The translations under genes were made by a program, and so were the position numbers. Of a stretch of 64,000 nucleotides of DNA, positions 37,648 to 62,500 are shown piece by piece. The stretch is from Halichondria panicea (lineage: Eukaryota; Porifera; Demospongiae; Suberitida; Halichondriidae), in assembly GCF_963675165.1 (NCBI RefSeq), contig NC_087380.1, forward strand, positions 6,815,571-6,879,570, given 5' to 3'. How positions within the stretch are numbered: the stretch's first letter is position 1; each line of letters opens with the position of its first letter. Under the pieces are notes generated by a model, which worked only from the letters and a program-made list of their open reading frames with translations, made no database searches and was not told the origin of the DNA.

Positions 37648-40600
37648 TTATTCACTATCAAATTTCCTCTCGATATCGTCAGCTAGGCCTCCCCTCTCCA
37701 CCCCGGGGCCTCTCAAAGCCTCCACCATGACCGACCAGCTCGGAGATCCCTTCTTGAACCACGCCTCCAGCATTGCAACAAAACACTTCTCCGTGTTATT
37801 GTAGTTAGTCTCTCTGATACTCTGAAGATTAAAACAAAAAACACAAGATAACGTAACTCAGTACTAGATACATAGCATGCATGAAGCCTCTAATACACTT
37901 TACCTGCCAATTAAATGGACGACTTCGCATTCATGCAATATAAATAAGCAATTTGGACAATATACTTACGTCTCTTGTTCCACTGTCCACATCCAAGTTA
38001 ATGGCCAGGTGGTACCACTTTGCACGAGCATCCCAAGTAGCATCTTTGACAGTCTTGAGAGTTATGTCACCACCTGTAGCTGTGGCCTCACCTGACAAAG
38101 GGGGAACATGGTTTGGTAATGAAAACAGATGCAAACTAAATGCAATGTAGAGTTACCGTACAACTGTTGCAGAACAAATGTGGCTATAGGTACGCACATG
38201 TGTATCTTGTAGCCTTTGGCACACGGTTGAGTAATTAATGAACACACGATAATTATAATTATGTACATCTATAGAAAACATACTTCACACATGCAGCATT
38301 GACAGTACTTACTGATTCTCAAGCAGTGGTGCACTTTGAAGCAGAGCTGCTTGTTCTTGGATACTTCACAAGTGTAGAACCCATCGCAATGATCCCTCGT
38401 CACTTTGTCCACAGTGAGCTCGTTATCTGATCCACCCGCCACCTTCCTGCCTTTCCTGGTCCACTTGAAGGAGAGGTCATGAGGGTCAGCAAACGGCAGG
38501 GCTCTCAGAACAGGTGCCTCATTCAATTTAACTTCCTGCACAGTAAAAACAGATACGTTATAATAACATAAAACATCTCAAATAAAATGCATCATTTGAA
38601 ATTTAATGTAGAAATGACATACGTAAATTTCTGTCATTTAAACACTAAAATACGATGATGCATCCCATATAACATATGTGTTTTTGCTGTGTGCATGTGG
38701 GAAATGATCTGATTCACAACAAATTGAACATGTATATAAACCACATGACGTAAAGAACTTTTTTCATGCACATGTACTAACACTAAAAACTCAGCTAAAA
38801 ATAATGTTCTATCATAATTATACCTTTGAAAACCAGCATTCCTGACTTGGTGGCAGAGAAACACGATCATCCCCACACTGAAAGAAAGGACTGCGACCCT
38901 CCATCAACTTGCACAAACTCGTTTCTTCAGCGTTTTGATGCTTTGGGCACTGACAATCGAATGCAATAATCGGCTCGATCTTCTTGCTAATTCCACTCAT
39001 CACATACAGGACGGTAGTCAGCACATAGGAGCAGAGATCATGCATGTCACAATCATCTTTTTTGGTGAGTCGAATCTCGTAACAGTCGGCGTGGGCTACC
39101 AGCGTGATGTGGTGTTTGGTACTATCGACATTGAAAGAGACCAGATTTCTCTTGACAAGAGATTCTCGCAGATTCCATTTCAGCCCCAAAATTCCTTTTT
39201 GTCCCTCGGAAACCAACTTGCTGATCATGGCACAGAAGACACCAATGGGCACATAGCCAGACTTGAAGGTGATCTTGATTGGAGAGGGTGTGTCGGAGTC
39301 GATGGCTGGAGCATTTGAAAGCTCTTCCTTTGAGGCACACTCGAGGATAGCTGGCATGAAGTAAATTGGCTGGCGACCTTTACCAACTATGGGTGCAAGG
39401 AGACTGACATGCTCAAGCAACTTCACAAGCTTGTCGACCGGGATCAATTCACCTTCCTTCACTTTTGTCTCGTTTGACTTGGAACAGCAGAGTTTAATCG
39501 TAGCAATCGAGAATTGTCCGAATTCTTGCCACTTCTTGATCTCGGCAGCGGTGAAACGAGACCTCTTATCGGATGAGTGTAGAGATACAAGAGATTCGAC
39601 AAAAAGGAGACTGATGCTGTTGAAGACAACATTGGGGCTGCAGATGACACGGTTTTTGAAGTAAGACTCCTTGTCCTTGATGTCAGGGTAGTAGAGAAGG
39701 GCCCCCACACAATGGTGCAAATACCAAATGGTGAACTTCACCTCCTCTTCATCCATCTGTAATGCTTTGCCAATCTGAATACACTCTTCCATCGTCGCAA
39801 TTTCAAATTCTTTTCTCAGAATAACCCCAAAAAGGAGCTGTACAGGGCGAATCGGGAGTTCGGCAGCTTTGAAACGTGAGTCAAACACTGTTTGAAGGTG
39901 TTCACGAATCGGATCAATGTCAGCATCTGTGCCATTGAAGTTATCAACGGAGAAGAATTGATTATCATCTGGGTGGCTGATGACGTCACTAAATTTTGAG
40001 GTAATGGTGGATAAGGCTTCATGCTTCTCTTGGAGTTTTGCCTGCAACAGCTTTTTAGTGTTGGCTTGAATGGTAGAATCTGTGCTCAACTGATGGACAA
40101 CTGCACTTGCTAGCTTGGAGAGGGTTTCGTTACATTGCTTCATCTGGAGCAGAAGTTGAATAGCTTTGGGTGCGCTCCGTTTTAATTTCTTTTCGATTTC
40201 AGGAGGTAGAGTTTTCTCGAGAACTTCCACTTGCAATTCAGTATCCTCTTGTGATGTGGTTGGTTTATCAGTGGTAGCCTTTGCTTTTGCTTTTTGTTTT
40301 ACAAGGTCTTTTGAAAAGGAATCTAATTCAAGCTGCTTGCCAACCTCTGCCTCTAATTCGGAAAAGATCTCCTCCACGTTCTGCTCAGATTCGACTTCTT
40401 GCTGCACCTCCAGAATCAGCTGTATTGCGGCTCCCAGAGTGTTTTCGTCAAGACCGGGGTAATCCCCCTTGAGCTTTGCCTGAACAACTTCTGCCTTGGC
40501 TTGAACTTCCAACTTGTCTTGGTAAGTGCCCACTAGACTCACGACAGCTTGAAGATCTCGAAAATGCTCAACTTTATCACCAATCTCGGAATCAACATCT

Positions 40601-43600
40601 GAATCAACTGTGACGTGATGGCTGATGGCTGAAAGAATTTGGGAGAGGGTCTCTCGAATCGTATACTTTGCTTGGTAGGGGGTGATTTTGTCTTGGTCAC
40701 GTTCGTAGGAAACTTCATAAAGCTCGTCGAGATCTTTATCGAGAGGGAAGAAAGCGAGAAACATCCCCGGGCCCTTGCTCAAAAATGGAAGCATCTCTAA
40801 AAAGGCAGGCTGCCCACCTATGTCGATGATGTTGAGCAAAACTTTGCCTAACAACTGTTCCATGTAATTGCCGCGCTTGACAATATCTCGAAGGTTTTCA
40901 ATGATCTTGTCGACCTTGGTGTCTGGAGCCTTTAGTTTGGCTGGCTGGCTTGATTCTTCCTGAGGAACTTGTTTTGCTTCAGGTTCTTCATTTGGCTTTG
41001 AATCATCAATGCGGGGATCATTCGTTGGATCAGCAGATTCTACTACTTTGGAAATGGCAGTATTTAGAACTTGCTGAACACCAATCAAGTAAGCAAAAAT
41101 CAGTTGTGCTTCGTTGTCAATATCTGTGGAGGCTTTGAGAATCAATTTGGAGTCACTTGACACAGCCAGGACTTGATTACACTCGGCAAGAAGAGTGCTG
41201 CAGCGTTTTCTGTCTTGTGGTGGGATTGATGCCAGGTTAACCAGGTGACCCAGCAGACGTTTTCGGAAGGTGGTTTTGCCGAGCCCTGAAAGGCCGATTA
41301 GGTACAGTTTAAGGTAGCGGAGGTTGATGGTGTTCTTCTTATCTGTCAGCAACTCGTTCAGCTTGTGTACGTACTTTAACTGCTCTTTAACAGAGGCTGA
41401 AAGTGAAAGGTATACATATTATAAGTTTACAAGTGATTTATTAATGAAAGCACCGCGGGTGCTGATGTCTCGGTGGAGGGGCGCCAAAGCTTTATGGTAA
41501 TGAAGCTACAGTAGTATAGTTAAATAATAGTGGATAATTTTCAGGGGGGGAGGGGGCAAAATATTTGTGGTTAAGCAATATTTAGTCACTTCGTGGACAA
41601 TACTTTCGTGGTTGCTGCTTGCACTGCAGGTAAAGGTAGGCAAGGTCGTTTCATTCGTGGATAAAATATTCGTGGTCAGAGGTTAAACCACGAAAACCAT
41701 GAATATTTTGCGCCATGAAAATTACCTGCTATACAGTACACACATGTACAGTTCATTACATGCAGGGAAGAGCAAAAAAAGAGTGGGAAATCATTTTGAA
41801 AAGGATGCCGAAAGTTCAAAGTCCATAATTATTAATGAAACCTAAAATTATATGGGGGGTGATCAGTGCCAAAACCTCCAGTTCTTTTTATTTAGTACTA
41901 AAATTATTTGCATGGTAAAGTTCTACATACAAATGACACGCTCTCTCTTATTTGCATGGTGAAGTTCTACATACAAATAATACTCTCATTTGCATGGTGA
42001 AGTTCTACATACAAATGACACGCTCTCTCTTATTTGCATGGTGATTTTCTACATACAAATGATACTCTTATTTGCATGGTGAAGTTCTACATATAAATTA
42101 TACTCTTATTTGCATGGTGAAGTTCTACATACGATGAAAGTTCTACATACAAATGAGAAGTTCTACATACAAATAACGCTGCATGGCAAATGATAAGCTT
42201 TGTTAGTTTTACAATGACACTCTCATATATATTTGCATTGACTTGAAACCACTCCCTTTTTCATCTATAAGGAAGGGCTCGGATGAAAAAGGGAAGGTTG
42301 GAATACAATTAGAACAAACCACTATAACTACATAATGTGTGGGTGTTTATTCAGCTTTGATCCCAGACCGTCAGAAAATGTATTTTATACTCGAGGCTAT
42401 ATAGCAACAGAAATAGTACATGCGTGAGTGGTGGCACGCAAGTTGTTAGGACGTTAACAATAACATTGTGGGAGCGTGACATTCTTCACGCATGCCCCTA
42501 TAGGACAACTGTAAATTTATTGAAGGAGGACACAATTAACATTATAGTATAGACGGACATTTTAATTAACATATCAACTACGTGTTGGACACGCCCGCTC
42601 ATGTGGCAATCCTTTTTGGTCACATAAGTGGGCGTGTCCAATAATGGAGTTAAAAAAATTACTCTCTCCCCTGAGCCTTTTCTTAGGTGAAAAGGGGAGT
42701 AGTTTCCAGTTTAGCAAATTAACTATGCAAATGCGAGAGTATCATTTGTATGTAGAGCTTCACCATGCAAATGAGAGTATCATTTGTATGTAGAACTTCA
42801 CCATGTAAATGAGAGTATCATTTGTATGTAGAACTTCACCATGCAGATGAGAGTATCATTTGTATGTAGAACTTCCCCATGCAAATGAGAGTATCATTTG
42901 TATGTAGAACTTCCCCATGCAAATGAGAGTATCATTTGTATGTAGAACTTCACCATGCAAATAAGAGAGAGCGCGTCATTTGTATGTAGAACTTCACTAT
43001 GCAAATGATTTTAGTACTAAATAAACAGAGCTGGAGGTTTTGGCACTGATCACCCCCCATAATATTAATGGAAACAGTGACTTTGTAGCTCTTTTCTCAT
43101 TCTTGCAGCTACCAAAAGATATAGCGTTTTAGTGCAGAGCTAACTACTAAGTAGAATAGGCAACATATTTTGCTACGCAAGAGTGTGAATAGTTTCCAAC
43201 AGCCTTCAAAGTAGCCATAACTCGAGAACGCAGCTTTATTTTGCATTGTAATCGTGACTAGAGAAGCCTCAGAGGAGGTACGACATAGGTTGACCTTTTT
43301 GCTATTATTAATGAGTTACTCCCGTATTGCATTCCTACAGCATGACAGGATGTAACACCCTATAGGAGGTGTGGCCTCGCGTCATAATTTATCATCAAGT
43401 TTCACGGAGGAATTGTGAGTGTACGGAGAAAGAAGAGAATATACGGAAGCACAACACCAAAACTTGCTTTCCTAGCTAGCTAAAAGACTACAAACGATCA
43501 TAGTACTCCACAGTAGTTATAAATAATGCCTAGCTATACATAAGAAAATGAATAGCATACTCATAGTTGAAGAAATGAGCTATGAACTTACAGTGTAAGA

Positions 43601-46600
43601 GTTTGTTGCGCTTTCTATGGCTCCTGTCTTAATGTAACACTTATAGTAGATACTAAGATTGATAAAATGCCTCTTGGAGAGACTCCAGAAGAGATAAACA
43701 CAAAGAAAAGTAAAATAGCGCTGACGGTGCATAAAATACCTGCTGAGTCAACACAAATATCATGTGGGCATGACATCCTGTCATGCTGCAGGAATGCAAT
43801 ATGGGAGTAACTCATTAGCAAAAGGTCAACCTATGTCGTACCTCCTCTGGAGAACCCTGTATTAAGGTATATACATGTATGTTCGCAGTACATGCTTAGT
43901 CAGCAAAAAACGGTAAAGTATATACCCTTGAAATATACCCGCTATACGGTATGTGATCAACTAGGTAAGTACCGAGTGATCAGAGGTCTCTCCAAAAATT
44001 GCATGCATCTTATAGGGCAGCCAAACCTCGACAAGTCATAACACTCTATGTGTACCAGTTTTACTACCGCATTAAACATTACCACTATAATTATAGTCAC
44101 TGCCATTAGTCACGCTACTCACCTGCTGTGTCCTTGCTTTCCTGCACTGAGGAGTCATCATTCTTGATGTACTTGTCCTCAATCTCATCAGCAATGTCAG
44201 GACGGTCAACAATTGGTAACCACAGGGCTTTAACCAGCTCAGACCAGGTGGGGTTGGGTGAGGACTGGAGCCATTTTCCAAGCATTGCAGTGAAGCGATC
44301 TTCTGAGGTATGGTGGTCCTTATCAATAGCCTGTATAGAGTGAACATTAACGTTAACATGTTATACGGTTGGAAGTTAAAAAAAAATTAATGAAGGAAAT
44401 CTTTAAATATGCGACGCTTGGACATTTCATCTTTATACTTTAGCACCATTATTATTGTTTTGTATAGTCATTCTAGCTGGAAAATTACACGGTCACCTTA
44501 TTTACAATTTACACGGTACAGAGAGTCTTACAACACCGGTATCTGAAGATTCTTAATAATTAGGTAATGATCGACCATAACCGGTGTTGTAAAACTCTCT
44601 GTACTGTGTAAATTGTAAATAAAGTGACTAATTGTTCATGAAACCATAGAGAGTGCTAGGAAACTGCATGCCCTTCAATCACCTCTAGTGTTCCGTATGG
44701 TAGACCCAGCACAAGCCCTAGGTAGAACCACTTAACACGAACGTCCCACAAGACAGCTCTCGCTTCTCCTAGTGTGAGGGACCCTGCATAGAAACACATG
44801 ACAAGCAATGACATCCACATTTATACAGTAGGTAAACGATCGAACCATGACACAATAGAATGTACATTACATGTATATAATGAAAGCACCGCGGGTGCTG
44901 GTGCCTCGGTGGAGGTGTCAAAGCTACATAACATAAAGCTACTAGCTATTAGCAATAGTTTTATACTGACACACAATATAATTATAAACAATTTTGCAAT
45001 TTTGCTGCATGCATTAATTGTAAGGCAGAATCCAGAATCACAGAGAAACTCAAAGAGTGGGTAATGATCGACCATAATTGTTGTTAAAAAGGATAGATGC
45101 CAAAAAGTCCAAGTTTAAAATGGCTGCATTAGCAGAGCCTTGCCAGCTCTCTTCTGAGGCTGAGTTCTCACTCTTGCAGCTACCAATAGCTAGCGTTCTA
45201 GTGCAGGGTAAGAGTGAAAAGAGCTGCAAACTGCACTTAGCTGTTTCATGCAGCTATTAATTTTATGGACTTCGAACTTTTGATATCGATCAACGATCAT
45301 GGTCAGTCATTTCCCATTTTTTGCTTCATGTTTGGTGCCACCACCGAGGCATCAGCACCCGCGGTGCTTTCTAGTGTTGTAAAATTCCTATAGCCTCACG
45401 CATCGCCGACTTAGGCTTAGCTACAGAATGATGTCACTTCTGAGTATCCAGCCTCAAGGTTTGAGATTGGATACCGCAGCGAGCTTAAATCACACCATGG
45501 AATTAAGGTATAATCCACCAATCGATGCATCATGTAGTGTAGAACTTACTATTAAGAGGTTGAACTCGACCCTGTTGCGGCTGCTCTCTTTCTGCAGAAA
45601 ACAATGCATGATTAATAAAACTTTACACATAATAACGTATATCGTATAGCGGGGAAGTTTTGTTTGGTGTAAATTTTTGTATAAACTGCCCAATTTCGTA
45701 TTTTAAGTATTCGTACAGCTCAGGATAGTGACGTTGAACCGTATCACGGTAGAATAATTAATTTTCGTATGATGCTCTATCAGTGGTGTGCCTAACGAAG
45801 GGCTTTGGAGGCTTGAGCACCCCCTGGCCTTCCTGACAACCATGAGAGTAATCTAGCTATCAGTAATGGTCTAGCTAACTGAGCAGTTGTCTCGAATTCT
45901 CTTATGCAAATGAAAGTACAGTAGAACCTCGCTAATCTGGACCCCTTTAGTCCGAAACCTCGCAAATCTGGACAAAATGGAAAACTGAAAAGAGGAGGGG
46001 CTGTCAGTAGAATAGACTTCTGCGCATGCGCAATCTAGCTTATGAGTGTACCAGTTTTACTACCACATTAAACATTACCACTATAATTATAGTCACTGCC
46101 ATTAGTCACGCTACTCACCTGCTGTGTCCTTGCTTTCCTGCACTGAGGAGTCATCATTCTTGATGTACTTGTCCTCAATCTCACCAGCAATGTCAGGACG
46201 GTTAATGAGTGTTGACCTCAGGGCTTCAACTAGCTTAAACCAGGTGGGGTTGAATGAGGACTGGAGCCATTCTCTAAGCATTGCAGTGAAGCGATCTTCC
46301 CCGGCACGGTTGTCCCTCCGAATAGCCTGTATAGAATGAAATTCATGTTAATTAAGTAACAATAATTTTTCGTTGGTAGTTGAAAAAAATTAATTTAGGC
46401 AATCCTCTAATTATGTGACGCTCAGACATATTTCATCTTTATACTTTAGCATCATTATTATTGTTTTTGCGTACATAATTATAGTCATAGTCAAGCTGGA
46501 AATTAGTCACGATCACCTTATATACAATTTACGCGGTACAGAGATTATAAAAACACTGGTATCTGAATATTCTAACACATGTATTATGTTTATACCGGTA

Positions 46601-49600
46601 TCAGAGTTTATATCGTGTAAAATGCATGGTGACCGTGACTAATTGTTCATGAAACCATAGAGAGTGCTACAAAACTGCATGCCCTTCAATCACCAGTAGT
46701 GTGCTGAATGATAGACCCAACAGACGCCCCAGGCTGTACCATTCATCACGAGCATCCCACAAGGCAGATTTCACCTCTCTTAGTGTGAGGGACCCTGGAA
46801 ACACATGACAAGCAATGACATCCACACAACATTAATTGATTGAGATTGAACTATGACACAATACAATATGTATTAATATCACCGTACCCTCGCAAAAATA
46901 CGCCCACTCTTTTCTGCAAGAAGTTTAGGCTTATTAGGGGACTGGGGGTTTAATCTCGACCTGCGAGTTTTCATTCAAATATACGCCCACCCGCGGCCTC
47001 AAATCGAGGTTTACACTTTGCTCTATGACAATTCTTTATTAATTTATTGTATTTACACAGTATGAACATTTCATTGACAACAACAATGTTATAAACTAAT
47101 GCACGAGTATATGATTAAAGCATGAGAAGAGAATGAACATGAAGAAGTGGACTCTGACTCTATTCGTTACTTGTGTCGATTCAGATGTAGCAGAAACTTC
47201 CCAAAGGATGGTAGGTCATACTCCTACAGAGCAGCTATCAGGTACTCTGTTTCAGAAAACCAAGGCAAGGTAGCCTGCAAAATTGGCCTGTGCAATAACT
47301 TTCTTGGACTTTGTGTTTTCCTTTCTCTGCATATTTAATAGGACTACTTGTTCCCTGCATATACATCTTCAAGGGCAAACAGATCCATACAGAGTTATGT
47401 GTCTGATCTTGGTCCAGCAAGCTAGTATAGTCTAATATCGTATAGCGTGTAATTTTCGTGGGGCAAAATATTCGTGGTTTTCGTGGTTGGAGGTCTGACC
47501 ACAAATATTTTACCCACGAATGAAGCGACCTTGCCTACCTTTACCTGCAGTGCAAGCTCCAACCAAGAAAATATTACCCACGAAATATCTCAATATTGCT
47601 GAACCACGAATATTTTGTCCCCCGAAAAGTACCCGCTATACGGTAGTAAGCTATACCTAAAACTTCCTTTCTTTAATAGTGAACATGTGGCATTTAGCTA
47701 CTGCGCATGCTCAACTCTTCACTCTGGGTGGGCTTATAATCGAGTGAAAACACCCTCGTGCAAGAACTTCGAAGCAAAAGAGGGGATGGGCGTTTATTCA
47801 AGATGGGCTTATTTTCGCGAGGGTACGGTACATGTATATAATTATGTCTGCACATTGCTTATTATAAGTGCAGACATCTCCACAGTACAACATAGTACAT
47901 ACGTAATATTGGTCATACTCAAAGTAATAGCCAGGGTGTCATACAGGAGGGAACCCTCCCTCTGGTATTGAAATAACAGTTGACCTTTTTTTAGCAAACA
48001 TTTTCTGGTTACTTATCAAAAGCATGCCCCCTCTACTTCAAATCCTGTATGACACCCTGATAGCGCTTGTTTTACTTGCATGCAGTCTGTGCATGTGTAC
48101 GTACCATCATGTATCTCCTCGGCAGGACTGCTAGTGGGATCATACTTACATGTATATAATGAAAGCACCGCGGGTGCTGGTGCCTCGGTGGAGGTGTCAA
48201 AGCTACATAACATAAAGCTACTAGTTATTAGCAATAGTTTTATACTGACACACAATATAATTATGAACAATTTTGCAATTTTGCTGCATACATTAATTGT
48301 AAGGCAGAATCCAGAATCACAGAGAAACTCAAAGAGAGTGGGTAATGATCGACAATAATTGTTGCTAAAAAGGATAGATGCCAAAAAGTCCAAGTTTAAA
48401 ATGGCTGCATTAGCAGAGTCTTGCCAGCTCTCTTCTGAGGCTGAGTTCTCACTCTTGCAGCTACCAATATCTAGCGTTCTAGTGCAGGGTAAGAGTGAAA
48501 AGAGCTGCAAACTGCACTTAGCTGTTTCATGCAGCCATTAATTTTATGGACTTCGAACTTTTGGTATCAATCAACGATCATGGTCAGTCATTTCCCATTT
48601 TTTACTTCATGTTTGGTGCCACCACCGAGGCATCAGCACCCGCGGTGCTTTCTAGTGTTGTAAAATTCCTATAGCCTCACGCATCGCCGACTTAGGCTTA
48701 GCTACAGAATGATGTCACTTCTGAGTATCCAGCCTCAAGGTTTGAGATTGGATACCGCAGCGGGCTTAAATCACACCATGGAATTAAGGTATAATCCACC
48801 AATCGATGCATCATGTAGTGTAGAACTTACTATTAAGAGGTTGAACTCGACCCTGTTGCGGCTGCTCTCTTTCTGCAGAAAACAATGCATGATTAATAAA
48901 ACTTTACACATAATAAGGTATATCGTATAGCGGGGAAGTTTTGTTTGGTGTAAATTTTTGTATAAACTGCCCAATTTCGTATTTTAAGTATTCGTACAGC
49001 TCAGGATAGTGACGTTGAATGTATCGCGGTAGAATAATTAATTTTCGTATGATGCTCTATCAGTGGTGTGCCTAACGAGAGGCTTTGGAGGCTTGAGCAT
49101 CCCCTGGCCTACCTGACAACCATGAGAGTAATCTAGCTATCAGTAATGGTCTAGCTAACTGAGCAGTTGTCTCGAATTCTCTTATGCAAATGAAAGTACA
49201 GTAGAACCTCGCTAATCCGGACCCCTTTAGTCCGAAACCCGCACAAAATGGAAAACTGAAAAGAGGAGGGGCTGTCAGTAGAATAGACTTCTGCGCATGC
49301 GCAATCTAGATAATGAGTGTACCAGTTTTACTACCGCATTAAACATTACCACTATAATTATAGTCACTGCCATTAGTCACGCTACTCACCTGCTGTGTCC
49401 TTGCTTTCCTGCACTGAGGAGTCATCATTCTTGATGTACTTGTCCTCAATCTCATCAGCTATGTCAGGACGGTTAATGAGTGGTGCTCTCCCCAGGGCTT
49501 CAACCAGCTCAGACCAGGTGTGGTTGAATGGAGACTGGAGCCATTGTCTAAGCATTGCAGTGAAGCGATCTTCCCTGGTACGGTTGTTCTTCTGAATAGC

Positions 49601-52307
49601 CTGTATAGAGTGAAATTAAAATTAATTTAGGCAATCCTCTAATTATGTGACGCTCAGATATTTCATCTTTATACCTTTAGCATCATTATTATTGTTTTTG
49701 CGTACATAATTATAGTCATAGTCAAGCTGGAAATTAGTCACGATCACCTTATATACAATTTACGCGGTACAGAGATTATAAAAACACTGGTATCTGAATA
49801 TTCTAACACATGTATTATGTTTATACCTGTATCAGAGTTTATATCGTGTAAAATGCATGGTGACCGTGACTAATTGTTCATGAAACCATAGAGAGTGCTA
49901 GGAAACTGCATGCCCTTCAATCACCAGTAGTGTGCTGAATGATAGACCCAACAGACGCCCCAGGCTGTACCATTCATCACGAGCATCCCACAAGGCAGAT
50001 TTCACCTCTCTTAGTGTGAGGGACCCTGGAAACACATGACAAGCAATGACATCCACACAACATTAATTGATTGAGATTGAACTATGACACAATACAATAT
50101 GTATTAATATCACCGTACCCTCGCAAAAATACGCCCACTCTTTTCTGCAAGAAGTTTAGGCTTATTAGGGGACTGGGGGTTTAATCTCGACCTGCGAGTT
50201 TTCATTCAAATATACGCCCACCCGCGGCCTCAAATCGAGGTTTACACTTTGCTCTATGACAATTCTTTATTAATTTATTGTATTTACACAGTATGAACAT
50301 TTCATTGACAACAACAATGTTATAAACTAATGCACGAGTATATGATTAAAGCATGAGAAGAGAATGAACATGAAGAAGTGGACTCTGACTCTATTCGTTA
50401 CTTGTGTCGATTCAGATGTAGCAGAAACTTCCCAAAGGATGGTAGGTCATACTCCTACAGAGCAGCTATCAGGTACTCTGTTTCAGAAAACCAAGGCAGC
50501 AAAATTGGCCTGTGTGATAACTTTCTTGGACTTTGTGTTTTCCTTTCTCTGCATATTTAATAGGACTACTTGTTCCCTGCATATACATCTTCAAGGGCAA
50601 ACAGATCCATACAGAGTTATGTGTCTGATCTTGGTCCAGCAAGCTAGTATAGTCTAATATCGTATAGCGTGTAATTTTCGTGGGGCAAAATATTCGTGGT
50701 TTTTGTGGTTGGAGGTCTGACCACGAATATTTTACCCACGAATGAAGTGACCTTGCCTACCTTTACCTGCAGTGCAAGCTCCAACCACGAAAATATTACC
50801 CACGAAATGTCTCAATATTGCTGAACCACGAATATTTTGTCCCCCGAAAATTAGCCGCTATACGGTAGTAAGCTACCTAAAACTTCCTTTCTTCAATAGT
50901 GAACATGTGGCATTTAGCTACTGCGCATGCTCAACTCTTCATTCTGGGTGGGCTTATAATCGAGTGAAAATACCCTCGTGCAAGAACTTCGAAGCAAAAG
51001 AGGGGATGGGCGTTTATTCAAGATGGGCTTATTTTCGCGAGGGTACGGTACATGTATATAATTATGTCTACTCTGAAGAAAGTTACTGATAAAGTGAAAC
51101 ATTGCTTATTATAAGTGCAGACAACTCCACACTACAACATAGTACATACGTAATATTGGTCATACTCAAAGTATTAGCCAGGGTGTCATACAGGAGGGAA
51201 CCCCCCCCTCTGGCATTGAAATAACAGTTGACCTTTTTTTAGCAAACATTTTCTGGTTACTTTCAAAAGCATGCCCCTCTACTTCAAATCCTGTATGACA
51301 CCCTGATAGCGCTTATTTTACTTGCATGCAGTCTGTGCATGTGTATACAGCACCATAATGTATCTCCTCGGCAGGACTGCTAGTGGGATCATCGTACTCC
51401 ACTGTCACACTGACTGTATACTGGAGGGGGTAATACACAAGTGTCTGAGATCATGTGACTACAACAGAATTGCATTATCATGTACGTATGATCAGCAAAA
51501 TTGAATGATTGCGTAGTATTTGACTATTACAACAGAATGATACCTTGTCATAATGTTCGCAGAAATTAAATTAATACCCGCATCAAATATGTCACCTTAA
51601 GGTATAATCAGCATATTAATTTTGATGATGGAACAGCTACTCAGGAGTATCAGAGCATGCTATTAATCGGCACGGCAAGCTCCAAATTGTATACCAACAC
51701 CAGTATGCATGCACTGTGAGACAAAATGAATGAATCACCTCTGAGTCCAGTGACCCTCTCCCCTTGTTCTTTAAAGAGAGTGGTGGGGATCGGTATCTGC
51801 CATTTCTGAGAAGACCGAGAGATATATCCAATGTACCCGTACCAACAAACCTGTAGACACATAAAAATTGTGGTCAAATGTAAACTGGATAATTAATACG
51901 ACTAATACATGTATACGTACTAGTTACCAAGCAATATCAAACATTCTCATTTCGTATTTAATCTCACTCTGTTCTCGCTGTATGGATATCTCGCCGGTAC
52001 AAATCAAGCTTGAGTGATTGGGTACCGCTGGGTTCCTTCAGTGGAAACACTAACTCCTCCTGTATTTAAAGAGAAGAGTGACAATATCAAATGCAGTACT
52101 TGACTACAGTAAACCTAAACATGTACACACATTATAGTCACACGTAGTACTACGCTATTAAATCCATTACATCAGTTTTGAGGTTATAAGCTATAGACAA
52201 TATTCATACATAATTCACACAACTGCTCACATCATCCCAGTTCATAATACAGGCAGCAGGGCTAGGTGTTAGTATCACTCTCCTTGCGGTCGTCTGTCTC
52301 TCCTCCC
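37648..52307 (-). CDS. Modular Death-domain array / Roco-like GTPase / Ig-like protein (5' end not found)
   Basis: Exons joined by phase: C2 part 52,231-52,307, 51,968-52,059, 51,739-51,850, 51,354-51,420; Death unit 1 49,925-50,025 and 49,390-49,600; unit 2 46,694-46,794 and 46,119-46,326; unit 3 44,683-44,783 and 44,123-44,330; GTPase 38,824-41,396; Ig-like 38,313-38,535; Death 37,970-38,091 and 37,648-37,821 (TAA). C2: LKLDLYRRD, EFVGTGTLDISLG, PLSLKNKG. Each Death unit has KWxxLGxxLGLP, then CF.AML..W......TW..LV.AL. GTPase: P-loop GLSGLGKTT, switch II DIGGQP, T-x-x-D (GTYQDK), then a COR-like winged-helix region (LHHCVGALLYYP). There are long Glu/Lys-rich inserts after the P-loop and after GTYQDK. 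Ig-like: LSFKWTRKG then CDGFYTCEVS. All junctions keep frame, but the exon chain, especially C2 to Death, is inferred without transcripts. A role in cell-death or innate immune signalling is inferred from the domains. Confidence 0.75.
41525..41735. mobile_element. Foldback element of the TTTTCGTGG family
   Basis: In the intron before the GTPase exon. It shares with 47,427-47,645 (opposite orientation) CACTGCAGGTAAAGGTAGGC, ATTCGTGG repeats and an end reading AAAATTACCTGCTATACAGT. Non-coding. Confidence 0.7.
41851..43061. mobile_element. TA-flanked foldback element with octamer array
   Basis: The terminal inverted repeats begin TGGGGGGTGATCAGTGCC at 41,853 and end at 43,059 with the reverse complement, with TA on both sides (41,851-41,852, 43,060-43,061). 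The TIRs exceed 100 bp and consist largely of 38-39 bp subrepeats of ATTTGCATGGTGAAGTTCTA, CATACAAATGA and a variable tail. About six intact ATTTGCAT copies lie in the left arm and about six ATGCAAAT copies in the right. The middle holds further palindromes (ATGAAAAAGGGA; GGACACGCCC...GGGCGTGTCC). TA duplication suggests Tc1/mariner-type mobilisation. No transposase. Confidence 0.85.
43261..43857. mobile_element. hAT-like non-autonomous element, copy 3
   Basis: It begins CAGAGGAGGTACGACATAGG (43,270) and ends with the reverse complement at 43,849; the arms are complementary for about 75 bp. The flanks GAGAAGCC (43,261-43,268) and GAGAACCC (43,850-43,857) form an 8-bp duplication with one mismatch, again with one extra base on the left. 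At 580 bp it is the longest copy. The interior open frames show no transposase. Confidence 0.85.
44495..44628. repeat. Inverted repeat between Death half-exons
   Basis: Arms TTTACAATTTACACGGTACA and its near complement ACTGTGTAAATTGTAAATAA enclose a smaller pair (ACACCGGT ... ACCGGTGT). Diverged relatives lie at the matching position of the other Death units (about 46,515-46,630 and 49,745-49,865), so it predates the unit duplications. Confidence 0.75.
44880..45378. mobile_element. Foldback element with GAAAGCACCGCGGGTGCTG ends
   Basis: The left end GAAAGCACCGCGGGTGCTGG plus TGCCTCGGTGG at 44,880 is inverted at 45,345-45,375 (CCACCGAGGC ... CACCCGCGGTGCTTTC). A duplicate copy is at 48,161-48,660 and a lone end at 41,447-41,478. 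About 500 bp, no transposase. Confidence 0.8.
46882..47831. mobile_element. TIR element with ACCGTACCCTCGC ends, carrying a nested foldback
   Basis: The left end ACCGTACCCTCGCAAAAATA plus CGCCCA is inverted at 47,805-47,831 (TGGGCTTATTTTCGCGAGGG then TACGGT). The inner arms pair loosely through GAAGTTTAGG/CTTCGAAGC regions. A separate foldback (47,427-47,645; CGTATAGCG ... CGCTATACGG) lies inside it. A second copy of the whole nest is at 50,111-51,052 through the tandem duplication. No transposase; the open frames at 47,147-47,338 and 50,364-50,657 look random. Confidence 0.8.
47427..47645. mobile_element. Foldback element, CGTATAGCG...CGCTATACGG
   Basis: The ends ATCGTATAGCGTGTAATTTT and the opposing GTACCCGCTATACGGTA are complementary with mismatches. 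The interior repeats ATTCGTGG/CCACGAAT many times and includes CTACCTTTACCTGCAGTGCA. Related pieces at 41,525-41,735, 50,655-50,870 (duplicate), 56,505-56,555 and 58,540-58,580. Confidence 0.75.
48143..51391. repeat. 3.27-kb tandem duplication, right unit
   Basis: The right-hand copy carries Death unit 1 (exons 49,925-50,025 and 49,390-49,600) and its right end overlaps the working last C2 exon. It differs from the left unit by scattered substitutions and small indels (e.g. GCAAGGTAGCCTGCAAAATT in the left unit against GCAGCAAAATT here). This points to a recent event. Confidence 0.9.
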
Positions 52308-52309
52308 CT

Positions 52310-53216
52310 ATATGGAAACACAAGTCAATGCAAGCATTAGCAGGCCATTTTAATTATTCAACTAAAATGTCGGCCTGGGAAGAGGCAATTTCATCTTAAT
52401 CTCAGAGATTTGTGATTGTCACGCCGTAAATAGCTCCCCATAAATCAACTATATGCGGCAGCAATAAATAGCTCCCCCAGTACAGGAAACAGCCCACCCA
52501 CCCTTACTAACCGGCCATGGCAGCTTGAGTCAGTGGAGGGGGGACTGCCTATAGCAGGGCATTCTGCCATAGATAGTTCGAGGGACTCATTTATGGGGGA
52601 CCTTCAGTATATTAATAATATGGCATGGCAGGAACACTAGATTCATCATTGCTAGATTTAGATCTATACCTCTAGCTATAGATGTAGATACCTTCAAAGG
52701 AAGCAACCACATAGTAACCGCCAAAGAGTAGGGAACTTCTGTCCCGACCAAGGCTTGCACTTATATCTTTTACTCTCAAGGCCATCATGCATCTCCTAGA
52801 TCCTGTCAAGCATGCAAGTATGTAGGTCCACAGATTATGAGTCCACTGACCACTGCGGAAGTAGGGCTGTGGGCTAGGTTGGGCGTAGCTCTTATACTAA
52901 CATTGTATGGCCTCTTAGGTTAGGAGTGTCCTTCTTAGGATCTAGTGTCCTTCTGCTTGCCATCATTGCCAGTGTTGCATATTGCACCATGTACCACTGC
53001 TCTAAGGCTGGGTATGAGTGAGTTCACATAGCCTGAGCAAATAGCCATTGCTGCAACTTGTAAGTGTCTCATCTTATGTGATCAACTAGCAAGAGCTGAG
53101 TCTACATCATGCTTTAGGTTCATGCTTCCAATCATTGCTATTAAATGTAAAAACAGGATGTTGTTGTTATAGACATAATTATTAATTTGCTAAGAAATAC
53201 ATAAATTCGTATTCAG
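52310..53216. other. Spacer with no recognised exon
   Basis: The missing N-terminal half of the C2 domain should lie to the right of 52,307 on the minus strand, but I cannot find it here. The sequence shows no clear repeat or open frame of note, except short AGCTCCCC direct repeats near 52,430-52,475. Confidence 0.4.
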
Positions 53217-54330
53217 GAATCGTGGTTACATGGGTGACCTTCAACCAGACGTCACAAGTGCAGTATGGTATCCATAGCGACAAGATGGTCCTGTCGAAGA
53301 CTGTGACGGGAGATACCACAAAGTTTGTAGTGGGAGACGTGACTCACTTCATTCACAGGACCACTCTCAGCAATCTGGTTTCACTAGCAAAGTACGGTGA
53401 GTGTTGCACTATTGTTCATTTGGTCCCTCCAAAGACATCACCTCTAGTGATGTACCAATCATTCTATTATGACAAAGACCACTCAACAACGTTCCTACAC
53501 GAAATACGCTTTCAAGACTCTGTTATAAGTTAGACCTCCCTTAATTATTATCACACACTAATAATTTATAACTGTCCTTATATATCACGTTGTCAAAGTA
53601 CATACTTTTATGTGTCTATAGCAACTCACTGTACCCACTGCGCTCTTTACCACAGGTGTACAATGGCTCCACGTACAGTATTAACCGAGCCCCCTACAGA
53701 CTACACATGTGGCTCCCCTGCCAACTGGAGTCAGGTGCTCACTCTGAGAACCCTGGGAGACCAAACCTCGGTCCCTATGCTGGCTGACATTCTATGGTAA
53801 CTTTGGACTGGAGAATGCTCGCTCACTCCCATGGCTCATTGACAATGTTGCTAAGGAACGGTTTGATGCTGTACTGCATGCAGGGGGCAACTTCAATGTG
53901 AGGATTTTTGAGTCATGTATCATTTCTAAGAAATTAAAATCGATGGTGAAATGTTTGATGGAAACTAAATTAATGCCTACCTCGAGATAGAATCCACTTT
54001 TGACCTTTTTAGACTCAATGGCCACAGACATTCAGTTTCACCATAGCATGTACTCTTCTTAAGTGACATGTTCTTAGCTATATAGTACTGGCAGATTAAA
54101 TGTCAACAATTACCTTCAATTTATAACTCTCTTGTCAATAACTTGTGCAGGAGGATAGTATGTACAGGAGGATGGTAGAGTGGAAGAGATGCTTTAACTC
54201 GTTACCCCGCCCCCTCACCTCTGCAGTAACTTCACTCACTACAATCATCGGTTCAGTATGCCTGGGAACAAGGAGGGACTCATGTGCAGGTGCCCGGGAA
54301 TAAGGAGGGATTCATGTGCAGGTGTGTGTG
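53217..54330 (+). pseudogene. Purple acid phosphatase (ACP7-like) pseudogene
   Basis: Three exon-like pieces follow the family order. 53,217-53,396 gives GIVVTWVTFNQ, VQYGI, ATGDT-like VTGDTTKFVVGD and FIHRTTLSNL. 53,656-53,897 gives DYTCGSPANWSQV, then after a frameshift near 53,790 YGNFGLENARSLPW and FDAVLHAGG. About 54,215-54,270 gives SNFTHYNHRFSMPGN. The metal-binding motifs are broken: GDFG reads GNFG and HVGDFAYD reads HAGGNFN. The third (GNHE) is not seen and no C-terminal half follows. Intron positions with GTGAG donors remain, so it decayed in place rather than arising by retroposition. Confidence 0.75.
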
Positions 54331-56599: not shown

Positions 56600-59500
56600 C
56601 TTCATGCATTGACATACTTCAGCAGCAATCCCCTCTTTTTTTAGCATTACTAACATCTCCAGAAGAGCTCTGAATGTCGCTTGTGAGGGCTTCTTTCTTT
56701 TCCAGATGGCTAAACACTCGATCATAGCTAGGTGGTTACTTTCAGTTTTTTTCAACCTTACATCACTTTGCTCGCCAGAGGTTAGCTCGAGTAGATAAAT
56801 ATAGAACTCCACATTGTCAAAGTGGACCGCCAACAGTGGAATGTTTTTCTGTTGGATTTCACGGTTGATTTGGGAAGTAGTGAGGTGATATTTGTCCATC
56901 AGCTGTTGAAGAGCTGTACTCACTGGTTGAGCACATGATCCTACAGTACGGAATGAAAAGTCAGATAAGACACTTTAATGTATTGATATATGGATTATGA
57001 ATATGAACACTACCAACAAAACCATCAATGTACACTATCGTAGAAACGATTATTAGCGTATGCCCTAATGGGTCAATAGCAAAGCTCTATATGCGTTTAT
57101 ATTAATTTAAGGATGCGCTTATAACTAAATGCAGTCATTTTGAGTTCCACCCAGTAACCAGATGTCTCTATGACGAGAGATGACTCGTAAGCTAGCCGTA
57201 GAAAGAGAATTATGTGTGGAGGTGTGGGACTGGCTCTAATGACAGGAGGGGTGCAAGTAATTACATGTTTGTATAAGATTGTCTTGGAAACAAAAAGCAT
57301 ATACTGAGAAATGTAATGGGAAACATATTTTAGTCTTTTGTTAAGCAATTAGTGAACACATGCATAATTTGCAAATACCTATAATCATATATATATACGT
57401 ATTTCACATGCACAGCACTGTCATGACTTATCATCTATACTAGGTAAAGAGAGGGCCTGGTATCGACTGTTTGCCCATGCAGCCACATAATCCCCAGAAA
57501 CTGGGGACTCCGGATATCATCGTATAATGCTCAGTAAAACAATGACGTCACAACGAACGGAAGTAGATTGAAGAAAGCCTACAACAGTGTGGATGACAAT
57601 CATCTGAACGGAGGGAAGGCTGATAATAGCCTATATATGGACAGGCCACGCCCATCTGACACTAACCTTGGTGAAAGTCTACATGTAGACTATATCAGAA
57701 ATAAATAGCTGCTGTAACCAAACGTACAGCTCTGCCTCTAGCTAGCTAGCTACATATAGCTCTGTGTATGACTATTCTTTGTCTGTATAATTATGTTATT
57801 CAGGATATTTTTCGGGGAAAATGTCAGTTTTATGGAAACATTACGGGGAAATTATCCAATAATTTTGTGCATGCGCAAACAGTCAGTAGCAGGCCTCCTT
57901 TTTGAGGCCTTGTGAAGGAGGCTAGGTAAGTATATATATACCGAGTGATCTATAATGACTTGACGAGTCATAACAATCTATGAGTGTATACCAGTTGTTT
58001 TACTACCGCATTAAATAGTGTGTACGGTAATCATGCAGCCATGCAATACTCACCTGCTGTGTCCTTGTTTTCTTGTAATGATGAGTCATCACTCTTGATG
58101 TAAACGTCCTCAATCATAGCAGCAATGTCAGGACGGTTAATGTCTGGTGACCTCAGGGTTTCAACCAGAACAGACCAGGTGGGGTTGGGTGAGGACTGGA
58201 GCCATACTTCAAGCATTGCAGTGAAGCAATCTCCCGGGGTATTGTAATGCTTCTTAATACTCTGTAGAGTGAAAACTCAATAGTTGGTACAATGTACTTG
58301 GTATAAATTTAACCATTGTCTTTATAGCCTCTAATTACCCGTACAGTGCGAAATTTGTGAGGCACTTAAATTTCGTAAATGGCCTCTAAAAGCATTTCGT
58401 AGACTAAATTTCGTCAGTTGACTGCTTACCGGAAGCATTCCCAGGCCTTGCCTTAAATCTTTGCGCTAGCTATTTAGCAGATAAAGAACAACGTTTGCAT
58501 AGGATTGCTAACCAAACAAAACGGCTGTTTTGGAGTTGAACGAATTTTTTACCCCACGAAAATTACCCGCTATACGGTATACAGTGCTCTTATAACGACC
58601 GGACAACGTAAGATACGCATGCTCGGTAAAATGTTCCTGCCACGTGGTGAACACAGTAAGCAGCTGCAATTAATGAAGAGAGTGCACATGCAGTGCCAGT
58701 CATTACCCGAGGCGCACGTGGGCGGCCACGGGTATAGTAGTCTGTTGGTTTGTCTGTTTGTCACCAGTATATCTACTCACCTGGATGCCATAGCGCTGCG
58801 TTTGCAGCATAGGTAGCCTTCACACAACAATATCTTGGTTTAAATAGTGGCAGATTTTGATGTTAAAGCTTCTTTGTCGAGTAAAAGCGAGCAAAAGCTA
58901 AGAAGCTTAAACTTGCCACGTGGCCTTGAGTCAAGGTACGGGATCACTTCAGCTAAAAATACGTAGTCAAGGCCCTGATTATGTATTTTCAGCTGAAGTG
59001 ATCCCGTACCAGGAACAATTTAATACCATCAAGAAAGTAGAATTGTGACTGGTTCAAGTGTTGACTGACTCTGGATTCTATACGTACTCCAGCCTGGAAG
59101 GAGCCATACTTCTCTTAGTCTAAGAGTCCAGGCTTCTTTGCTGTGATCCCAGTCCATAGTGCATGTCTCATGCATGTACGTTGTTAGTTTAGTTTTATTG
59201 CTCTTGAGTTGCTGTGCTAGCGCATGCTAGTCAGTCATACATGCTACATGCACTGCATTATCACTCTTCTGGTTTCTTTATTATCATGTCACCAGCCGAG
59301 GGTTTGCACTTTAGTGTTCTAGTGATAATATATAGCTAGCTCTATACTATATACTGATATATATATAGTAGCTGCAGCAGATTTAAACTTAAACAAAGGC
59401 TGTTAATAAGTGGATCGAAACTTTGAACACTTCAATTTGGTTAGGGTTTGAAGCAGACGATAGATACCAAGTAGTGACGCTAAGATGCAAGGTGTGTGTG

Positions 59501-62500
59501 CTCTTTGAAGACAAATACTCTTTGAAGGTAAGCTCAATGGGATGAGGAAATTAACTTTAACCGAGCTTATATCAAAGGGTCTTCTAACCTAAGAACTACT
59601 TCACAGACCATGCCAAGACAGAGATGCACCAAACAGCCATGCTATACGAAGAAAGGACCTCAACTGATATTGCCACTAGCACTAAGAAATGTACATAGAC
59701 ACTATATATATATATATATATAGATTGGGACACATGGCATATTTTGTACGCTTTATGGTTTGTCCTTACGACAACGACATTTGTTTGTCCTCTCAAACAC
59801 ACCGAGGACATTTTGTATGTTATAATTATAGTAAGAGCACTGTATATAAAAATTCAGAGCACTGTAGGTGATATCATATAGTATATACGTACATGCATTA
59901 TGAAGGTCATAATTAATTTCTAAATACAGTACTATACATTACAGAGAGTGCTAGGAAACTGCATGCTCTTCAATCACCTGTAGTGTTTCGTCTGGTAGAC
60001 CCAACGCGACCCCCAGCTCAAACCATTTAGCACAGACTCTCTGCAAGACAGTGCTTATCACTGTTAGCGTGACAGACCTTGGAAGCAAACTTAAAATAAA
60101 TTCCTTCTCGATAACGTCAGCTAGGTCTCCCCTCTCCACACTGGGGCCTCTCAAAGCCTCCACCATGACCGACCAGCTCGGAGATCCCTTCGTGAACCAG
60201 GCCTCCAGCATTGCAACGAAACACTCATTCACACGATCATTGTGGGACCTTTCTATGTTCTGCACATAAAAAAGAACAGAGATAGCGAAAAAAATACAAT
60301 AATGTAGAACTTGATTTCCCATGGATCAATTGTGTATACAGACAAAACAAACCTTGCACCGATGTAGGCTAATCTTAAATTTAGATAGTATGTACGTAAC
60401 ACGGTCCAATACTCACTTTAATAGTTCCCTCGTCCACATCCAAGTTAATGGCCAGGTGGTACCACTTTGCACAAGCATTCCAAGTAGCATCTTTGACAGT
60501 CTTGAGAGTTATGTCACCACCTGTAGCTGTGGCCTCAACTGGACAAAGGAAGAACGTGGTTTGGTAATGAAGAACAAGTAGCAGAAAGAATGCATACATG
60601 TAATAAGGAATACTTATATATATACTGTTGTCAAAACATAATGTGTGCATGGCTATAATTATATAGGTATGAGGTAAATTAGCGATTATATAGGCACACT
60701 GAATTTGCATGCATATACACCGTACATCAGTCGAATGGCCAAGACCCGGAAGTTCAATGTAAATGCCGTACACTTATTTAAGTATACATTATGCATTACA
60801 TCATTGCTTGAGTTAGTTCAAGAAAGAGGGTTGACTTCAGTACTGCATTGTGCAGCAGAGAATATTCAAGAGCAACTGTGACTGTCATATCCAGGTAGAT
60901 CATCACAAGAACTACAGTCTGAGGCATCACTCGAGGCAAATGCTCTTACAAAAGCCACACTACACAGTGTCAAAGAAGACAATTACATTTTAGTGCGGTA
61001 TAGCTACCATGCAGCGTTATATTTTCAGTTCCCAAGCATATGAAGCAGATCTGATCAATGAGTACTGTAAAGGTAAGCTTCTTACTTGTTTTCGACTTAT
61101 ATTCAGCCTGTTTCCATGCATGAATTAAAAGTTATGAGTGGTCATTAATTAGTGTGTGGTTGACTGGGCTGACTGCATAAAACCTGCACAGTGACTGTCA
61201 TGTATACCATGAATTGTATATAATAGTTTTATACATGGTTTTATTTGCTTCAGTGATACAATTGTTCCATGTCCTCAGCGTTGATGTCGATCACCACTGA
61301 AGATGTTCGCTATTTTCTTGTGAACATACACTGAGGATACCCCCATTGTGCTCACTCTCTTCCAGTATCTGGACAAGTCACAAAAAGGTATCATGGTGTA
61401 TTAGAGTCCAAATTCTGTCCCGTATTTACAGTATAGACTCTGGCTATCTGAGATGTACAGGCACCTTGATATACCGATCATTTGGTTTGGCACAGATTGC
61501 TGGCTATATATAGATGTTTACTGCACAAAACTCGCCCTGAAATGCGGCCACTCCCTATTCCTTATATACTGGCCAGTACTGGCTTCCCCAAACTAGTTAT
61601 TTTATTATGGCCGGATATATACGACGTTTTGGTTTAGATGATATAATAGCATAGAGAGCATACTGATACCGCAAAATTTGTCATTAGATTCGAGGTAGGG
61701 TCGTTTTTTAGTCGCGGTTATTTTCTGAAACACAGCCACCTCGCTATTCCGGTGAAGCTGCATTGTCTCAAGGGCGGCCAGATTAACAAGAGTCTACTGT
61801 TCGCTGTGCCCCGTGTAAATTAACTATAGAAGTATCCAAACACACTTTTGTGGGGAAAAGATTTCATAAATCCATAGTTTCTTGCTATAGGTATACATCT
61901 CACTGCAACATGCAGCTTGATTACATGTAGTTTATTGTATTACTTATGCTGCCTGGGGCTTCTGTTGAATCTGTTCAAAAAAGAGGCTAACCTGTCAAAG
62001 AATTAATAAAAGAATCATTCTCGAGTCACAAAAGCGGCTGAAGTGTATACAATACGAATGTGTTACTTTCTTCACGTTGCATGATTAATACTTTCGGGGT
62101 TTGGAGTCAAGCACATAATTATAGGTAAATTTCTTTCAAGCCGTTCGGTATGTTGATGGCTAGGAGGGTAAAAAACACAGTGTGTATTATCACAGTTATG
62201 TTCAATTCTCGCTTCTATACATTGTAGGTGATATCAAGCCTCTGAATGACAGGACATCGCCGCTGTGAGACTCCAACACTACTTTTAGACAAACATTTAT
62301 TGTTATTACCTTCTGTGTTTGTTGAAATGTATCATATGCACATATTGTTGTTTGGCCAACAAGCATTGAGTTGTGTGTCAAATTACCCTTATAGTGAGCA
62401 ATTATCGGTAGGCTCTATAATAAATACTGTCTGGTAAAACAGCACAACTTTCGATCAATTTAATGCTTAGCTATTAAACTAATGATATTCCAAGTCTCCA

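Follow-up and report, generated by a model that had tools for sequence, protein, structure and literature searches.

Why does a sponge gene carry a run of Death domains in front of what looks like a GTPase switch, and another Death domain behind it? The question is raised by a gene in a 64,000-nucleotide stretch of the Halichondria panicea genome (C4:6815571-6879570 of a 131 Mb genome in 39 contigs; hereafter the window). We find that this window gene is one of a sister group and not a one-off, that its core is predicted to be a Roc-COR (Roco-type) GTPase, and that exon B of the front Death domains evolves without net purifying selection, whereas Roc-COR, the Ig-like exon and exon B of the C-terminal Death domain are constrained.

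Exon chain and domain identities

On the minus strand, 17 candidate exons between 52788 and 37648 have GT/AG borders and matching phases, and together form a single open frame of 1,516 amino acids. Without two 42-nucleotide linker exons, the gene has 15 coding exons and 1,488 amino acids. The predicted protein P0007 (LOC135335600 isoform X3) has this chain too, though with only two Death units in front (79% identity over 1,297 alignment columns). We prefer the shorter model because P0007 joins its Death units without a linker exon. The predicted order of domains, from the N- to the C-terminus, is C2, three Death domains of two exons each, Roc-COR, Ig-like, and Death.

The Roc-COR exon contains a P-loop (GLSGLGKTT), a switch II motif (DIGGQP) and a G4-like motif (GTYQD), all conserved across a 39-sequence alignment. 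Pfam alone failed for this GTPase core. The window exon scored 13.8 bits with Roc, below the cut-off, and 14.4 bits with COR-A, and at E 0.01 only 1 of the 39 family members matched Roc. The Roc-COR profile likewise gave just seven matches among the sequences of solved structures, none better than E 0.32 and mostly around the P-loop. The Roco identity was therefore decided by fold comparison. A structure model of the exon (predicted local distance difference test, pLDDT, 73.5; predicted template modelling score, pTM, 0.70) retrieved Roco proteins in the first 23 of the best 50 rows, and aligned with LRRK2, LRRK1 and the C. tepidum Roco through residue 857. In addition, the 39-sequence family profile matched ten open reading frames (ORFs) that lie above the Pfam COR-A cut-off, with E-values of 1e-68 to 3e-13 that refer to a search set of 26, in which several other COR-A ORFs matched weakly or not at all. 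As modelled, the window gene has a Roc GTPase followed by COR, the two features by which the Roco family is recognized.

Fold comparison for the remaining front domains was done on a paralog. It returned an eight-stranded C2 fold matching ferlin C2A and a six-helix Death fold matching FADD. The sole match of the C2 profile among solved structures was myoferlin C2A (E 0.39), a weak hint that agrees with the paralog fold. The C-terminal Death domain scored 17.2 bits with Pfam Death (E 0.0057), below the cut-off, and its tail recurs in sister genes. The Ig-like exon matched Ig_3 below the cut-off as well, 4 of 12 copies matched at 0.01, and a strand-C tryptophan and a YxC motif are present. Searched against solved structures, the Ig profile found no Ig structure and one tail protein at 0.083. 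We regard the domain as putatively Ig-like, probably without the canonical disulfide, because the 12-copy alignment has no conserved cysteine at the usual strand-B place. With Pfam, no kinase match was obtained in nine ORF pieces, the joined C2 and Death pieces or P0007, and neither NACHT nor LRR was detected in the window pieces or P0007; the predicted switch domain is Roc-COR.

A first-pass annotation of the window had described exons joining in frame, with a run of Death domains ahead of a GTPase core and an Ig-Death pair behind it, and the exon chain and the fold comparison agree with it on both counts. Of the limits that it gave (37648..52307), the 37648 end holds, but the first coding exon, which supplies the start of C2, lies beyond the other; P0007 starts at the second ATG of this exon. 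Of the checks that it proposed, profile searches matched the three front Death domains (Table 1); Roc, Ig_3 and the C-terminal Death stayed below cut-off. Structure comparison gave a Roco fold for the window exon itself, and C2 and Death folds on a paralog.

A family of sister genes

The window Roc-COR exon had at least 89 matches in the genome (52 scored of 367 candidates), with at least 51 loci having rows that reach COR. The close group consists of 15 exons, the window exon and 14 sisters that are 82-93% identical to it. Thirteen of these sisters are on C4, 11 of them within C4:6.80-7.03 Mb, and one is on C14. All 27 matches of a C2 query were on C4 (27 of 27 candidates scored). A front-type Death exon B query gave at least 34 strong matches (E <=3.5e-21; 150 scored of 558 candidates); 31 of the 34 are front units by position and three are C-terminal-type second Death exons. 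With P0007 residues 1-345 as query, four H. panicea proteins were found among 6,375 candidates.

The number of front Death units, assigned by exon order along C4, ranges from 0 to 6 in the 11 C2-bearing genes on this contig: none in 6995k, one in 6622k, two in 7008k, 6982k, 6932k and 6919k, three in the window gene, 7025k and 5906k, five in 6947k, and six in 6803k. The triple Death arrangement reported at first pass is thus correct for the window gene, but is one state of a series. Two further genes, 6968k (with stops) and 6880k, have one front Death unit each and no C2 match. A stop is found in the Roc-COR of 6982k, too. The C2 at 6913k is possibly part of a different Roco, located at 6903k, and 6886k is not counted in the series. 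Elsewhere, the core of the family comes with ankyrin repeats, some with SH3 in addition and some without (P0052, P0061, P0086).

Ig exons numbered 64 among 74 candidates, and COR-A was found at 60 places (25 above and 35 below the cut-off). Merged within 3 kb, Roc-COR and COR-A matches mark at least 107 distinct loci, with no overlap between the two lists. The Halichondria Roco repertoire may therefore be the largest on record, as excerpts of PMC11378527 give 47 Roco genes for the richest brown alga, although our 107 are loci in the genome, among them pseudogenes and weak COR-A matches, and are not strictly comparable with gene counts. The genome as a whole is also rich in Death-domain exons (at least 148 matches; 150 scored of 503 candidates).

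Some family members have additional features. P0123 (C14, near 1,245,000) has a dynamin-like GTPase fused ahead of the Roc-COR-Ig-Death core, so that one protein would contain two predicted GTPases. In the predicted sister proteins P0121 and P0122 (both C4) and P0123, a hydrophobic stretch precedes a 2A-like motif (GDVELNPGP, GDVEANPGP), which excerpts of PMC4981915 report in the N-terminal region of sea urchin NLRs. As these three proteins carry it, the motif was sought in all six frames of the window, without a match.

Evolution of the front and C-terminal Death domains

For front Death exon B (29 of 33 exons; L062 was dropped as divergent, L063 as cut short, and L064 and L065 as C-terminal type), mean nonsynonymous (dN) and synonymous (dS) divergences were 0.195 and 0.151, giving a dN/dS of 1.29 (codon bootstrap 0.89-1.87). 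The proportion of nonsynonymous differences exceeded that of synonymous ones (pN>pS) in 325 of 406 pairs, which are non-independent. Tree-based counts gave a ratio of 1.25 overall (P 0.039), of 1.42 in the folded part (P 0.0072) and of 0.82 in the tail, a split that was chosen post hoc with the alignment already seen.

Controls were taken from the window gene and its sisters. Roc-COR (10 of 14 loci; L015, L020 and L021 were left out for want of a start marker, L017 as broken by a stop) had a dN/dS of 0.36 (0.31-0.42) with pN>pS in 0 of 45 pairs, and Ig (13 of 15 loci; without L011, which is short, and L029, from the same gene as L010) had 0.49 (0.30-0.78) with 0 of 78 pairs. In the C-terminal Death domain (7 of 14 sources having the tail signature and both exons), dN/dS was 0.55 for exons A and B together, with pN>pS in 1 of 21 pairs, and 0.47 for exon B alone, with 0 of 21. 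An earlier exon B estimate of 0.90 was discarded, as it included the wrong-type L013 match. Saturation does not account for the front Death result, because three of the controls (Roc-COR, Ig and A+B) have dS values close to or above that of the front exons. The comparison points to a variable front array and a more constant C-terminal Death domain. Exon A of the C-terminal Death domain weighs against this contrast: taken alone, it has a dN/dS of 1.23 (0.49-3.25) and pN>pS in 47 of 66 pairs, albeit with few changes.

On the modelled Death fold, the fastest front Death sites include the end of helix H3, the H3-H4 and H5-H6 loops and the start of H6, which are surfaces used in Death assemblies. 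Other fast sites lie inside H4, H5 and H6.

Two of the front units of the window gene are recent copies. Units 1 and 2 are tandem copies of 3.2 kb that differ at 49 of 2,789 aligned positions outside exons A and B (about 1.8%), and a partial copy of exon 5 at 48103-48141 marks the edge of the duplication. An assembly error was considered for these near-identical units, but the differences, together with indels, are spread over 3 kb and favour a real duplication. Exon A is identical (0 of 101 mismatches), whereas exon B differs at 17 of 207 positions (Fisher P 1.2e-6 versus the rest). Thirteen of these 17 changes are nonsynonymous, and in the comparison of these two units alone pN is close to pS (0.080 and 0.090). 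The extra change in exon B came either from selection or from conversion from another copy. In a tree of front Death units, unit 2 is placed together with one from the 6932k gene.

Layout of the locus

Two arrays of a 38-bp repeat, in opposite orientations (41901-42177 and 42697-43000), lie in the intron between Death 3 and Roc-COR. Near the 5' end of the gene, a plus-strand ORF (53186-53530) is similar to the purple acid phosphatase N-terminal domain (26.3 bits, below the cut-off of 30) and probably limits the extent of the Roco gene on this side. The C-terminal Ig, Death and second Death exons of the next sister occupy 58052-63998 on the minus strand; its Roc-COR exon (C4:6880333-6883158) falls just outside the window.

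Table 1. Predicted exons of the window gene and its tandem units, in window coordinates
Feature	Position	Strand	Basis
Exon 1, with the start codon (MMALRV..) and the beginning of C2	52692..52788	-	GT donor, phase 1, in-frame join; aligns with P0007 start
Exon 2, C2	52231..52307	-	AG/GT borders in phase
Exon 3, C2	51968..52059	-	AG/GT borders in phase
Exon 4, C2	51739..51850	-	AG/GT borders in phase
Exon 5, C2 end	51354..51420	-	AG/GT borders in phase
Death 1 exon A	49925..50025	-	splice chain; Pfam joined with exon B
Death 1 exon B	49390..49600	-	Pfam Death: 24.0 bits; with exon A added, 33.9 bits
Optional 42-nt in-frame linker exon (uncertain)	48831..48872	-	splice borders and phase only
Death 2 exon A, same sequence as in Death 1	46694..46794	-	splice chain, unit alignment
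Death 2 exon B	46119..46326	-	Pfam Death: 19.7 bits; with exon A added, 29.9 bits
Optional 42-nt in-frame linker exon (uncertain)	45550..45591	-	splice borders and phase only
Death 3 exon A	44683..44783	-	splice chain; Pfam joined with exon B
Death 3 exon B	44123..44330	-	Pfam Death: 22.0 bits; with exon A added, 24.6 bits
Roc-COR GTPase exon, 857 aa and split codon	38824..41396	-	motifs, structure model, fold comparison
Ig-like exon	38313..38535	-	Ig_3 E 7.5e-5; alignment of 12 copies
C-terminal Death exon A	37970..38091	-	splice chain; Pfam of joined pieces
C-terminal Death exon B, TAA end	37648..37821	-	splice chain; Pfam of joined pieces
Tandem unit 1 (holds Death 1)	48217..51349	-	alignment with unit 2
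Tandem unit 2 (holds Death 2)	44938..48101	-	alignment with unit 1

A proposed mechanism and its alternatives

We tentatively favour, at somewhat less than even confidence, a scaffold gated by GTP, in which the front Death array is the variable input and the Ig-Death tail the more constant output. The gene product would be a cytosolic Roco-type GTPase scaffold, docked on a membrane or a partner by its ferlin-type C2. Roc-COR would bind GTP and alternate between monomer and dimer, and this switch would expose the more constant C-terminal Ig-Death tail, which would then recruit a shared downstream Death adaptor. On the input side, the front Death array would sense or bring together different Death-fold partners; its copy number would set valency, and its fast-changing surface residues would decide the choice of partner. 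The protein would probably serve in innate defence or regulated cell death. Fast change and variable copy number are often seen in immune genes. GTP binding, switching and every other functional step of this model are inferred. The division of labour between a variable front array and a more constant C-terminal Death was not part of the first-pass annotation, which had offered a role of the apoptosome or inflammasome kind that is likewise conjectural.

The fast change of the front array could have other causes. The arrays may have diversified so that each sister assembles only with itself or its own partner, possibly in allorecognition and not driven by pathogens. Eleven close sisters share C4:6.80-7.03 Mb with the window gene, so that cross-assembly could be a problem, the fast sites include presumed Death-Death contact surfaces, and copy number varies among the sisters. 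However, this account presupposes that the sisters are made in the same cells, and the C-terminal Death domain would still permit mixing; we consider it unlikely. We are no more inclined to the view that the front Death units are duplicates which the protein can do without and which drift almost neutrally, with only Roc-COR-Ig-Death mattering. The dN/dS interval of front exon B does include 1, one C2-bearing member has no front Death unit at all, and some members contain stops (the 6968k and 6982k Roc matches). Yet the 34 strong front-type Death matches are all without an internal stop, the nonsynonymous excess falls in the folded part while the tail is more conserved, and exon B of units 1 and 2 differs more than the flanking introns, which is unlike pure drift, although conversion could explain it. 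Finally, the exons might belong to two or more separate genes and be in phase by chance, given that the chain is predicted from sequence and that the array introns are long and repeat-bearing, but this is very improbable, as phases match at the exon borders, P0007 and, with extra Death units, P0121 are each predicted as a single protein with this chain, and the Roc-COR to Ig join is found in 14 of 16 database proteins chosen by a motif at the end of Roc-COR (the exceptions, P0098 and P0101, read on past the border).

If the GTP-gated scaffold is taken one step further, the family may form a Roco-based receptor system, in which the tandem Death domains are not the conserved output but the hypervariable, copy-number-variable recognition part, read out by a GTP switch that signals through a constant Ig-Death tail. 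We regard this extension as doubtful. If true, the arrangement would recall that of NLRs, but with Death domains in the opposite role. Death domains are usually regarded as slow-changing signalling adaptors. Multiplying and diversifying front Death domains next to a constrained C-terminal one would amount to a natural experiment on the specificity of Death assembly. The family would also bring Roco GTPases, studied mainly for LRRK2 and DAPK1, into the candidate immune switches of early animals.

Comparison with known systems

By analogy, the polarity of Ig-Death after Roc-COR resembles DAPK1, and the variable front with a constant core resembles the logic of NLRs and of brown-algal LRR-ROCO proteins. 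DAPK1 has ankyrin repeats ahead of Roc-COR, and the ankyrin-bearing Halichondria sisters approach this order (ankyrin-Roc-COR-Death). With the DAPK1 group, as described in excerpts of PMC6337361, the window protein shares Roc-COR, a C-terminal Death domain and the lack of LRR; it differs by lacking a kinase, by the Ig-like domain that separates COR from Death, and by C2 with several Death domains in front.

No sponge Roco expansion and no protein with the domain order of the window gene was found in searches of open PubMed Central full text. The first-pass annotation, which knew of no described protein with this order, agrees with this, but a sister was already predicted, as "uncharacterized protein LOC135335600". 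Death-Roco combinations had already been reported as well, in the C-terminal Death of DAPK1 (in part of PMC6337361) and in Trichoplax Roco genes with CARD and death domains (in part of PMC11378527).

The brown-algal LRR-ROCO genes, according to the abstract of PMC11378527, also form a large Roco family in which front repeats are separate exons, shuffled and under diversifying selection. The shuffled unit there is the LRR, whereas in Halichondria it is a two-exon Death domain. A sponge expansion of Death domains is described in excerpts of PMC8195603, which list 357 Death-TRADD-N proteins of Amphimedon, mostly with 1-3 tandem N-terminal Death-like domains. In these, TRADD-N follows the Death domains, while the window gene has C2 before and Roc-COR after them. 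The same excerpts treat the Roc type as an AP-GTPase, found in DAP kinase and bacterial conflict systems. Sponge NLRs (NACHT-LRR, some with Death), according to a portion of PMC12909245, are likewise a large family combining a nucleotide switch with Death domains. The window gene differs from them in its predicted Roc-COR in place of NACHT, the lack of LRR, and its fast-evolving front Death domains. Closest of all are the H. panicea genes LOC135335600 and LOC135334611, sisters with an identical domain order, the former differing by its two front Death domains and the latter by several more and a 2A-like motif.
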